A DNA stretch of 55,942 nucleotides, from IMG/VR virus record IMGVR_UViG_3300042893_000841, positions 1 through 55,942 of that record; one strand, given 5' to 3'. The DNA is from a virus. Both the position numbers and the translations under genes were made by a program. Below are positions 30,907-44,881 of the stretch, piece after piece. The notes under the pieces are model-generated. The model was not told the DNA's origin and searched no databases. It was given only the letters and a program-made list of their open reading frames with translations. Numbering within the stretch: position 1 is the first letter of the stretch; each line of letters starts with the position of its first letter.

Positions 30907-30927
30907 ATAATTTTTTATACTTTTTGT

Positions 30928-30957
30928 TTGGCGGTTTAAAAAAAATCATTATCTTTG
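30928..30957 (+). promoter_or_regulatory. Bacteroidota-type promoter before 30981
   Basis: TTG 30928-30930, 19 bases, then TATCTTTG 30950-30957: an excellent match to the host sigma-A pattern. Predicted start near 30964, giving a leader of about 17 bases before ATG 30981. Confidence 0.75.
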
Positions 30958-32246: not shown

Positions 32247-32274
32247 AACCCCCCACCTAAAATGGGGGTTTTTT
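32247..32274 (+). terminator. Rho-independent terminator
   Basis: AACCCCC / GGGGGTT stem with a 10-base loop followed by a T run, 30 bases after the stop at 32216. A TATTTAT element for the next gene follows at once. Confidence 0.85.
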
Positions 32275-41121: not shown

Positions 41122-41598
41122 TTAATTGTGATAAATAATAATATCACCTCTTACAATTTTAGTAAAGTTATTTTTAATAAATTGTTCTTTTATGATTGTA
41201 TCACCATTACTTGTGATTATAACTAATGTGTTTTGATTTTTTATGTTTAGTTTTTGTGGGTGTTTAATGGCGGTTGCAATATTTAGTTTATATTCACCGT
41301 CATCAAAGTGTGGGTAAATGATAAAATCAAATCCATTCCAATTATCCCTAACAAAAATAGAATCTTTTTTACGGTTTACAATGACATCTTTAGCGACATT
41401 ACTGATAATATCGTCAAACTCAAATACAATATCCCCCAAATCCTCAAAGTTAGGTCTTGATTTTAATGATATTGGATTATTAGCAATTTGAGTATGATCT
41501 GTAGCAACAATATTAAATACATCACCCTCTTTCTCAAAAGAACCTAAGGTTATCCTATCCTCTACTATTAAGGATTTTAATACTGAAAGTAGTTTCAT
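41122..41598 (-). CDS. Hypothetical protein (start at 41598)
   Basis: A 158-residue protein starting M-K-L-L-S-V-L-K-S-L at 41598. The frame stays open upstream to 41826, but that part is the structured RNA region and includes a terminator, so it is not accepted as coding. The ATG is 5 bases after a TATTTAT element. The protein is beta-rich and soluble; function unknown. Confidence 0.6.
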   Translation of the reverse strand: MKLLSVLKSLIVEDRITLGSFEKEGDVFNIVATDHTQIANNPISLKSRPNFEDLGDIVFEFDDIISNVAKDVIVNRKKDSIFVRDNWNGFDFIIYPHFDDGEYKLNIATAIKHPQKLNIKNQNTLVIITSNGDTIIKEQFIKNNFTKIVRGDIIIYHN

Positions 41599-41603
41599 AT
41601 TAT

Positions 41604-41610
41604 ATAAATA
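41604..41610 (-). promoter_or_regulatory. TATTTAT element 5 bases before the minus-strand ATG at 41598
   Basis: Minus strand reads TATATTTATATAAT into ATG, directly after the terminator at 41612-41638. It could restart transcription for this gene. Confidence 0.45.
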
Positions 41611-41611
41611 T

Positions 41612-41638
41612 AAAAACCCCCCGAAAAAACGGAGGGTT
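41612..41638 (-). terminator. Minus-strand rho-independent terminator
   Basis: On the minus strand AACCCTCCG pairs with CGGGGGGTT (one U-G pair), loop of six Ts, followed by a T run. It ends the RNA that would start near 41830. Its left arm AACCC can instead pair with an upstream GGGTT (41678-41682), an alternative structure. Confidence 0.85.
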
Positions 41639-41830
41639 CTACAAGATAGTTTGTCCAATTGAGGAAGGTCTCTATCTAACCCGAATCGTTTTCCATCACC
41701 AGATTCTCGGCAGTCAGCTTTCAAGTGGGAGGGCTGACATTCCCTTTGCGTCGACACACCCAACACCAGGCGGTCAGATTGTAAATTAGGATTTCTGACA
41801 TCCTTGTTTTCAGTAGTGTTAACCACATCA
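41612..41830 (-). ncRNA. Candidate structured phage RNA with three similar hairpins
   Basis: A transcription unit of about 220 bases with no convincing protein. It has a host-type promoter at 41837-41868 and a terminator at 41612-41638. Its central 180 bases are about 46% G+C, far above the surroundings. Three hairpins have similar design: stems at 41773-41778/41794-41799, 41713-41718/41733-41738 and 41644-41649/41672-41677; the first two stems contain GTCAG/CTGAC, and all loops hold UCC followed by an A/U-rich part on the minus strand. It could be a free RNA or a regulatory leader of the gene at 41598. Confidence 0.6.
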
Positions 41831-41836
41831 ACAATA

Positions 41837-41868
41837 CAAAGATAGTGAAGTTTTTGGTTCTGCCAAAA
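41837..41868 (-). promoter_or_regulatory. Bacteroidota-type promoter for the structured RNA
   Basis: Minus strand: TTTTGG (41863-41868), 19 bases after its TTG, then TATCTTTG (41837-41844). This is among the best sigma-A matches in the window and points into the structured region. Confidence 0.7.
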
Positions 41869-41933: not shown

Positions 41934-42773
41934 ATGTTAAGTTATATTGGTGGTAAGAGTAAGATCGGAAAGTGGATAGTCCCTTTCTATGATAAGAATA
42001 TGGAAACGTATGTTGAGACGTTTGGAGGAATGTTTTGGTGTTTTTATAATATGGACTTGAAAGAGTTCCCTAACCTAAAGAAAGTTGTTTACAACGACTT
42101 TAACCCATTGAACTACAACTTATTTAAGTGTATTCAAAACCCAACAGAGTTATTGAAGGCAATCAACTCAATTGATTGTCAAAAATTTGGTGAGGTACCA
42201 ACCCCACCATTATATAAAGAACAATTTATCAGGTTCCAGGCTGAAATATTTAATGAAGGTTTCAACGTAAAACCTGAAGATTACGAAGTTGCTGCAAAAT
42301 ATGTTTACATTTTAACTCAAGTATTCAGTGGATCAAAACCTGAGACAAGTTCTTTTATTGACCTTAAAGGTAAGTACAAGTCAAAGTATTTGACGTTTAG
42401 AGATAAACTATTAAAACCGGATTGGATAGAACATTTCTTAAAGATAACTCACGTTGAGAATATGGATTTTGCTGAGGTTATTGAAAAGTATGATTCACCT
42501 AACACTTATTTTTATGTGGATCCCCCATATTGGAAAACAGAGAACTATTACTCCAACCATGACTTTGATCGTCAAGACCACGAAAGACTTTCAAAATCTT
42601 TAATAAGTATGGAAGGTAAATTCAGTTTATCATATTATGATTTTCCTTTATTATCCGAATGGTTTCCAAAAGATACATATACCTGGGAGAAAAAAGAATT
42701 CGCTAAAGCGGCAGCAGCAAAGAAAGGAACAAAACAAAATATGGGTGAAGAATTATTAATAATGAATTACTAA
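41934..42773 (+). CDS. Dam-like N6-adenine DNA methyltransferase (D12 class)
   Basis: A 279-residue methylase. SAM-binding segment YIGGKSKIG (residues 4-12) and ETFGGMFW (28-35), a YNDFN acidic motif, and the catalytic YVDPPYW near 194-200: the alpha-class order of Dam and D12 enzymes. Unlike the 28154 enzyme it has no adjacent nuclease, so it is probably a solitary methylase that protects phage DNA or marks it for a host-like pathway. The recognition site cannot be read from the sequence. Confidence 0.85.
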   Translation: MLSYIGGKSKIGKWIVPFYDKNMETYVETFGGMFWCFYNMDLKEFPNLKKVVYNDFNPLNYNLFKCIQNPTELLKAINSIDCQKFGEVPTPPLYKEQFIRFQAEIFNEGFNVKPEDYEVAAKYVYILTQVFSGSKPETSSFIDLKGKYKSKYLTFRDKLLKPDWIEHFLKITHVENMDFAEVIEKYDSPNTYFYVDPPYWKTENYYSNHDFDRQDHERLSKSLISMEGKFSLSYYDFPLLSEWFPKDTYTWEKKEFAKAAAAKKGTKQNMGEELLIMNY

Positions 42774-42817: not shown

Positions 42818-44881
42818 ATGGAATTACTTGGTATTTTATCTAAGGTAGTAAAAGAAAACGTAAACGTTAAAAGGATATTATTAGAATATCCAGAATCTAC
42901 TGTTAATAAATTGGTTGCAAAGTTTTTAAAACAAACTGAAGATAGTGAAGATAATATAAAATTAGTTATTTCTGATTTTGAAAGATTTAAAGGTGGTTTT
43001 GCTATAGATGAAAAAAATGAACTTAAACAACTTAACAACGAGTTAAAAACTTTAGAACCGTCCTCTCAAGATTATAAAGATTTACAAACTAGAATTCGTG
43101 ATTTAAATAAAACGGTACAAGATACTTTAGACATATTTAAGTACGACTATGAGAGTTTAAAAAATCTGACTGCGGATAAGTCGACAAAACAAAAAACAAA
43201 AAAAGACCTTGAAAGTATTGCTCAAGAGTTTGTAACAAAATATAAAGGAACAGATTTACAATTAGTTAAATTAAATATTAAAAAATATTTTGAATTAAAA
43301 ACTTTATTCCCAGAACAAAAAGTGTTTAAAAAGGAGGTAACCGAATACACACCATCACAATTAAATGATATTTCATCAAAATTATTCTCAAAGTTTGATG
43401 AACGAGGAGAAAATGTCTTAACCAAAAGAATTACCGAAAAGTTTGCAAAAGAAAATCCGGACGACGACCAAATGACGGTAATCCTACCAAGAGCTAAAAG
43501 ATTTGTTAAACACTATGCGTTAATACCATTAAACACTAAATTAGTTGCTTATATGTCATTTGATGATTTTGAGCACATAGTTGATGGGTATACCCCAATG
43601 GAGGAAGACGAATATAGTTTACCTGAGATTGATTTAGGTGATGTTGATGTTGCTTATGAGGATGACAATATCTTAATATTTGCTCCGGATGAAAAACAAA
43701 AATGTATTAACATTAGAAAGAAACACGCTCCAGATAGAAGATGGTGTACATCTTGGGAAGGATCAAGTAACTATTATTACAATTATAGATTAAATCAAAA
43801 CTTAACGCTATATTATGTTATTAGTAAAAATTTACCAGAATCTGATTTAAATTATGCGGTTGTTGTTCTTGTTGATAGATATGGGGAAAAAAGATTAGCA
43901 GATGGTTCTAACTCCGGAAGGTTTGCTGGTAGTACGGTTATTCCTTGGAGAGAAATGGTACAGAAGGTACCGGCATTAGATGGTAAAGAACGATATCTTG
44001 AAGCTAAACCATATAGTGCGGAAGATAGTGATAAAATGCAAAGATATAAGTCATATAATTTAACTACAACCGACCCTATTAGTGAATTGGGTAGTATTGA
44101 AGAGGTTGAATTATGGATAGAATTAAGAGGACCTGACTTTAGAAATATGTCAATGGGAGATGAAATATTCTCTAACTTACCGGAGGAATTACAGAGAAAG
44201 TATATAGGTTTAGGTAGTGAGTTAAGCGCCGGAATGGTTAGAGGACTTAAAGAAGGTGCAATGACTTACTATGTTTCTAAAAAGAAAGAAAAGTTACTTA
44301 CAAAAAGGTTATCAGAAATATCTGAAAATGATATGCAGGTTATTTTGAGTAAAGAAATGAGACCATATTTTAGACAATTAAAAAGAAAATATTCAGAAGA
44401 ACTTGAAACTAGTTTTGATCCTGAGTTTATTCCAATATCATATCCTAGCGATAATAACGCTAAATTTGCCAGAATGTTTGGGTTAGAAACGTTATTTGAC
44501 CTATTACCGGATAATACAGAATTTTTACAGATTGAAAATAAATCAAAAGATAGTGTAATTTATACTATTCCAGAAACAATAGGTAAATTAACAGAATTAA
44601 CAACTTTAGTTTGTGATAACATTATTAGAGAGTTGCCAGAAGCAATAGGTAATTGTAGACAGATGATATTTTTAAATTTGACAAATAATAAAGAATTGAA
44701 TACACTTCCAAAAAGTATTGCCAAACTAAGTTGTTTGGACTTTATTTCTGTTATGGGGTCTAATATTGAGATTGACAACCTACCAAAAGATATTTTACCG
44801 TATATGGATCCTACATCGGATTTCTTTACGGTTAATTTCCCAGCAAAAATGAAAAAACACTGTAATTCAGAAACAAGTTAA
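42818..44881 (+). CDS. Large protein with WCTSW-type domain and C-terminal LRRs
   Basis: A 687-residue protein. The first 200 residues are helical and charged, beginning with an amphipathic LLGILSKVVKENVN helix. A central domain (about 275-370) has NIRKKHAPDRRWCTSWEG, then YYNYRLNQNLTLYYVI and VVLVDRYGEKRLADGSNSG, a pattern seen in phage proteins and PcfJ-like proteins of unknown activity. Residues about 580-660 form leucine-rich repeats (GKLTELTTLVCDN, LPEAIGN, LPKSIAKL). The gene has a TATTTAT leader. It may be a packaged or effector-like protein; unproven. Confidence 0.6.
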   Translation: MELLGILSKVVKENVNVKRILLEYPESTVNKLVAKFLKQTEDSEDNIKLVISDFERFKGGFAIDEKNELKQLNNELKTLEPSSQDYKDLQTRIRDLNKTVQDTLDIFKYDYESLKNLTADKSTKQKTKKDLESIAQEFVTKYKGTDLQLVKLNIKKYFELKTLFPEQKVFKKEVTEYTPSQLNDISSKLFSKFDERGENVLTKRITEKFAKENPDDDQMTVILPRAKRFVKHYALIPLNTKLVAYMSFDDFEHIVDGYTPMEEDEYSLPEIDLGDVDVAYEDDNILIFAPDEKQKCINIRKKHAPDRRWCTSWEGSSNYYYNYRLNQNLTLYYVISKNLPESDLNYAVVVLVDRYGEKRLADGSNSGRFAGSTVIPWREMVQKVPALDGKERYLEAKPYSAEDSDKMQRYKSYNLTTTDPISELGSIEEVELWIELRGPDFRNMSMGDEIFSNLPEELQRKYIGLGSELSAGMVRGLKEGAMTYYVSKKKEKLLTKRLSEISENDMQVILSKEMRPYFRQLKRKYSEELETSFDPEFIPISYPSDNNAKFARMFGLETLFDLLPDNTEFLQIENKSKDSVIYTIPETIGKLTELTTLVCDNIIRELPEAIGNCRQMIFLNLTNNKELNTLPKSIAKLSCLDFISVMGSNIEIDNLPKDILPYMDPTSDFFTVNFPAKMKKHCNSETS

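Follow-up and report, generated by a model that had tools for sequence, protein, structure and literature searches.

The locus considered here raises the question of what is encoded between a host-type promoter and a terminator that enclose about 190 nt of GC-richer phage DNA, and what the product would do. The DNA comes from an IMG/VR virus record (IMGVR_UViG_3300042893_000841), and the window, that is, the whole stretch that was analysed, comprises 55,942 nt. The region of interest lies on its minus strand, flanked on one side by a gene for a D12-class DNA adenine methylase (41934-42773, plus strand) and on the other, beyond the terminator, by the gene for a 158-aa protein (41122-41598, minus strand) that is linked to the region and has no family match. 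It is a freshwater phage whose host is probably a member of the Bacteroidetes. Judging from sequence comparison, we put at roughly 0.95 the probability that the region encodes a non-coding structured RNA with a conserved fold. The phages that carry this RNA have a Bacteroidetes-type promoter, and it is co-inherited with the small gene beyond the terminator. Its 5′ leader is followed by one or two modules, each a pair of H-type pseudoknots, then by a 3′ pseudoknot that encloses a small hairpin, and last by an intrinsic terminator. Comparison of the window with L070, which has neither RNA nor gene, places one border of the insert directly upstream of the promoter.

The initial annotation had proposed a promoter, a structured region, and a terminator on the minus strand, and all three were located in the sequence. 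The promoter is of the Bacteroidetes sigma-A type (41837-41868, minus strand), with TTTTGGCA at 41868-41861 and TATCTTTG at 41844-41837. Its description as a promoter of host type holds up: it fits the −7 box consensus known for sigma-A of Flavobacterium, TAnnTTTG, located at −12 to −5 (PMC9723704), and the full form, TTTTGGC..TATCTTTGTA, occurs once in 56 kb. A looser form (TTTGG-N17-22-TAnnTTTG) is found three times in the window, with about one occurrence expected. Transcription would start near 41832, and the transcript would extend from there to 41612, roughly 220 bases. A hairpin is possible in the 5′ leader (41805-41832, minus strand), and the equivalent hairpins of relatives begin at the predicted +1 (GTGT/ACAC, TGTGAT/ATCACA, and TGTTGAT/ATCAACA). 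The rho-independent terminator (41612-41640, minus strand) is likewise real as annotated and is a strong one, with an 11-pair stem at 41640-41613 followed by Ts, and is also found in relatives. A second Bacteroidetes-type promoter was observed elsewhere in the window (30927-30957, plus strand; TTTGGCGG..TATCTTTG), directly behind a sigma-factor-like gene; it precedes a run of small protein genes, with a terminator near 32250, and these genes probably form an early operon.

Next to the RNA terminator lies TATATTTATA (41603-41612, minus strand), a motif that recurs 11-27 nt upstream of gene starts and is a candidate phage late promoter for the downstream gene. Of the 57 ORF starts in the window, 12 have TATTTAT 11-27 nt ahead of them and 5 have its reverse complement; the motif, seen upstream of many window ORFs, may be the phage's own promoter element. 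All gene-anchored members listed have TATTTAT in the stretch from terminator to ATG, which suggests that the downstream gene may have its own promoter.

What lies between promoter and terminator had to be decided with relatives, because the folding energy of the single sequence is unremarkable: for nested folds it was not significant, with z −1.51 when the terminator was included and −0.30 when it was left out. The evidence for structure is therefore comparative rather than energetic. Relatives were gathered through the loci around 80 methylase homologues, through DNA patterns (hairpins, 3′ part, and promoter-leader), and through protein homologues of the downstream gene. Copies near homologous genes in other phages, for which a search had been suggested, do exist: about 15 different RNAs that share this design, here termed PK12, were found in uncultured phages. 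The loci often represent overlapping parts of a single contig or contigs that are nearly identical; pair counts use distinct sequences, and locus counts are redundant. A conserved ORF across the region would have counted against an RNA according to the initial annotation; the long frame that spans it in the window (GTG at 41826) is broken in relatives, which argues that the region is non-coding.

Searches beyond these relatives returned little. None of the 4227 families of Rfam 15 exceeded its gathering threshold in the window, in keeping with the initial annotation, which recognised no known RNA family, and a permissive Rfam scan of the region gave only sub-threshold chance matches (best E 0.33). 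In named phages, neither similar DNA nor the downstream protein was found. The methylase alone has closer relatives, 53-56% identical, in uncultured phage records of 635-735 kb; in LR756502 and LR756501, the two records searched, the RNA was not above noise. The exact PK1 pattern (see below) gave a single match in 84,980 cellular genomes, in Sporolactobacillus, which was judged to be chance because of its apparent protein-coding context. Viral pattern matches in L090, L098, L100, L102, and L105 were judged by eye to be chance, and an R1 match in L141-L143 (22 bits) resembled AT-rich noise.

The fold proposed for the window contains two differing modules followed by the 3′ pseudoknot, all on the minus strand; across the RNAs, modules measure 57-61 nt and number one or two. 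In the first type of pseudoknot, the UCC(U/C) loop of a GTCAG/CTGAC hairpin pairs with an upstream AGGA or GGGA, leaving a short first and an A-rich last loop. This type is represented in module 1 by PK1 (41773-41804), which joins AGGA (41804-41801) to TCCT (41791-41788) and GTCAG (41799-41795) to CTGAC (41777-41773) and whose long loop is A-rich, and in module 2 by PK1′ (41713-41744), which joins GGGA (41744-41741) to TCCC (41730-41727) and GTCAG (41738-41734) to CTGAC (41717-41713). In the second type, the partner of CGCC is the loop GGUG in the stem that follows, which is highly variable; CACC/GGUG and CACU/AGUG occur as variants. Here, PK2 of module 1 (41748-41772) joins CGCC (41772-41769) to GGTG (41760-41757) and GTGTTG (41766-41761) to CGACGC (41753-41748), and PK2′ of module 2 (41683-41712) joins TGCC (41712-41709) to GGTG (41700-41697) and GAATC (41706-41702) to GATTC (41687-41683). 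The 3′ pseudoknot is built on GGUU/RACC, with an intervening loop (AGAUAG or GGAUA) that pairs beyond a 3-bp hairpin (with CUAUCU or UAUCC). In the window this is PK3 (41644-41681), with GGTT (41681-41678) paired to GACC (41670-41667), AGATAG (41677-41672) paired to CTATCT (41649-41644), and the inner TCC/GGA hairpin at 41665-41654. To our knowledge, RNAs with several serial pseudoknots that are supported by covariation are uncommon.

This arrangement revises the initial annotation in several respects. That annotation described three hairpins of like design: GTCAG/CTGAC does occur twice (the pattern GTCAGnnnTCC..CTGAC is present two times in the window, as against none expected from shuffles), but the third hairpin is part of the different 3′ pseudoknot. 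The UCC that was thought to be free in hairpin loops is instead paired with the upstream AGGA or GGGA. An antiterminator formed by GGGTT and AACCC was also proposed, but GGTT has a local partner, (R)ACC, in every PK12 member, and AGATAG/CTATCT, taken to be part of such a switch, is instead a helix of the 3′ pseudoknot, which in L128 shows the compensatory pairs GGATA/TATCC and ACC/GGT. GGGTT hardly varies, however, and an antiterminator form is still conceivable.

Whether the stems covary had been named as a check, and they do. In a first alignment of 13 sequences, 95.9% of the cells are paired and 21 are double-changed; in a second of 17 sequences, which includes module copies and L164, 95.7% are paired and 35 are changed on both sides. 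None of 500 shuffles reached the observed pairing or covariation score, and slid controls pair at only 21-40% (13 sequences) and 24-41% (17 sequences). In a whole-strand covariation test on the hand alignment, helices g (0 of 5000 shuffles), e (85 of 5000), and d (213 of 5000) receive support; helices a, b, c, and f are too constant to be judged by this test alone. Helix e is weak in several members, and helix a is supported by one compensatory change (A-U to G-C) together with its fit in nearly all modules. Because single short pseudoknots are frequent by chance, we place weight on homologous positions and not on mere presence. L164 bears on this point as a diverged copy that was found by protein alignment, not through the RNA, and was not used in deriving the structure. 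It is matched by the RNA model at E 8e-11 and has, at the expected places, GGGA/UCCU, GTTGGG/CCCAAC, CCCU/AGGG, GAACUG/CAGUUC, and AUC/GAU, such that nearly all stems are replaced; one of the four f pairs is lost when the alignment is read strictly, as the CCCU strand lies one position off.

Two further sets of sequences were noticed. In group 3 (L006, L007, L056, L116, and L124) the locus is occupied by a different RNA, which resembles PK12 in its leader and in its 3′ part, where a hairpin pair is possible, but has a differing, almost invariant middle in which AAATGG/CCATTT with GACTTG/CAAGTC is possible (about 2837-2870 in L006); it always stands before a gene of the A4 type where the locus sequence covers the gene region. 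L140 (1440-1650) holds a remote RNA candidate with a Bacteroidetes promoter and a terminator, downstream of an A4-like gene and followed by another stretch rich in hairpins that has a terminator of its own. Taken singly, the pseudoknots of group 3 and L140 are not significant, being equalled in 15-24% of shuffles, and are thus leads only.

The association between the RNA and the gene behind it is close. The RNA lies directly upstream in 19 of 19 gene-anchored loci. Among the methylase-centred and later loci, a redundant set partly fetched through RNA or promoter patterns, 31 have both, 63 neither, 3 the RNA only, and 4 the gene only. RNA type tracks protein type, with PK12 beside A3 and group 3 beside A4, two proteins whose main shared part is the N-terminal 37 residues. 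RNA and protein distances correlate (r 0.84; 0 of 5000 permutations), a result that linkage alone could give; cis-regulation or plain co-inheritance would likewise produce the common linkage and the matching distances. Exceptions occur on both sides. In two different phages, L107 (26-aa remnant) and L058, an internal deletion has removed most of the gene's coding sequence and the RNA is intact; since the deletions look recent, these cases carry little weight. In L094/L096, the RNA is followed by a protein with no relation to A3 beyond the N-terminus, and A4-type genes stand without the RNA in L013, L015, and L052.

The 158-aa protein had no match in Pfam, PADLOC, NCBIfam, or PDB sequences, and none above noise in PHROGs; PF13958 was not above its cut-off in the phages. 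Its AlphaFold model (pLDDT 78) has weak structural neighbours in the PDB, the best of which include toxins of the RelE superfamily (HigB2, Z 4.0; PfiT, 3.8; ParE, 3.0), and a Z of about 4 may reflect merely a common arrangement. Among the matches in BFVD is a phage protein that carries the annotation site-specific RNA endonuclease (TM 0.47, E 0.059). We treat these neighbours as hints and not as an identification. No ToxN chain is among the fold-search matches listed, an absence that excludes nothing, and the model obtained for the group 3 protein was of too low quality for use. The N-terminus of the 158-aa protein, MKLLSVLKSLIVE (MKLLxxLKxLIxE), resembles the capsid-targeting signals of T4, and a gene for a T4-type prohead protease (Peptidase_S77, E about 1e-23) is present in full-size relatives; together, these features suggest that the protein may be capsid-internal. 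The proteins at window positions 42818, 36471, 50363, and 41598 begin with a short helix-like stretch that closes on an L/I-x-E-like motif, as in T4 capsid-targeting signals, and the first of these, a 687-aa protein (42818-44881, plus strand), has a weak leucine-rich-repeat match at its C terminus.

What might the RNA do? Our tentative preference, held at a little under even odds, is that it acts in trans on the neighbouring protein, as its partner or inhibitor. The RNA would be made early from the host-type promoter, end at the terminator, and act in trans with the protein, most likely by binding it and holding it in check in the manner of a type III antitoxin; an excess of RNA over protein would be maintained by the terminator, possibly together with a late promoter that serves the gene separately. 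Type III loci are ordered as promoter, pseudoknot RNA, rho-independent terminator, and toxin gene (PMC5086642). This layout, with one promoter before the RNA, is shared by ToxIN, CptIN, TenpIN, and the locus here, as is the H-type pseudoknot fold, here predicted from covariation. The one-base L1 and A-rich L2 of CptI (PMC5086642) are likewise present, and in both settings the RNA is kept where the gene is lost. A type III-like pair thus fits the layout and the one-sided loss, but the unrelated protein, the A4 genes without RNA, and the case of L094 call for caution. The differences are considerable: in place of an array of near-identical short repeats, the RNA has one or two compound modules, each combining two different pseudoknots, and a further pseudoknot at its 3′ end; the protein lacks a sequence match to ToxN, CptN, or TenpN, and its fold searches are weak; the gene may have a separate promoter; and related genes occur without the RNA. 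With the repeat array absent and no family match for the protein, we do not file the locus under type III, although it may work like one. An extension of the partner reading, in which a toxin-like protein bearing a capsid-targeting signal would be packed in the virion and injected, to be restrained in the next infection by the early pseudoknot-chain RNA, strikes us as improbable.

The strongest alternative, which we nonetheless consider doubtful, is a cis-acting leader (attenuator or riboswitch) whose pseudoknots would sense a ligand or protein and control terminator read-through into the gene. Leaders of this kind also place a structured RNA and a terminator just upstream of a gene, and the tight linkage observed here, with the RNA always directly upstream and the terminator in between, is what they would predict. 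Most members have in PK3 a GGGTT that could join the terminator's AACCC arm, but this alternative pairing is nearly invariant, shows no covariation, and is absent in group 3, where terminators have G-rich 5′ arms. Also against a leader are the TATTTAT between terminator and ATG, by which the gene may have its own promoter, and the RNA that is kept where the gene is deleted; no Rfam match, to a riboswitch or otherwise, was obtained.

Unlikely, in our estimation, is a trans-acting RNA directed at a host molecule, for example as a decoy for an RNA-binding protein such as a host type III toxin, with the neighbouring gene hitch-hiking. Pseudo-ToxI of the Myoviridae phage PhiTE (PMC3475682) is a precedent, being a phage pseudoknot RNA with a variable number of repeats, as here, but it mimics a host antitoxin and has no phage protein partner. 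The host-type promoter, the modular and duplicated pseudoknots, and the other or broken genes behind the RNA (L094/L096, L058, and L107) accord with a host target; the presence of the RNA in all 19 gene-anchored loci does not. Neither does the result from the 84,980 cellular genomes, where the exact PK1 pattern revealed no similar RNA, although a target need not resemble the RNA in sequence. Finally, short conserved peptide genes in place of an RNA (frames MSVLLINNL... and MDDLVHHL...) are very improbable: some members are open for 24-44 codons from ATG before TCAG, but ATG-TCAG frames end after 5-44 codons at differing places and in most members after 5-15, stem changes are compensatory and not synonymous, the group 3 frame is broken in L056 and L116 with the hairpin kept, and peptide-coding readings were rejected because no single frame is open across relatives.

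Should the RNA prove to be the partner of the protein encoded beside it, the type III toxin-antitoxin layout would extend to phage genomes in which the protein is unrelated; should it act on the host, the phage would possess an RNA tool against Bacteroidetes. In both cases, the model, with its stems, loops, compensatory changes, and natural gene-less copies, makes direct tests possible.
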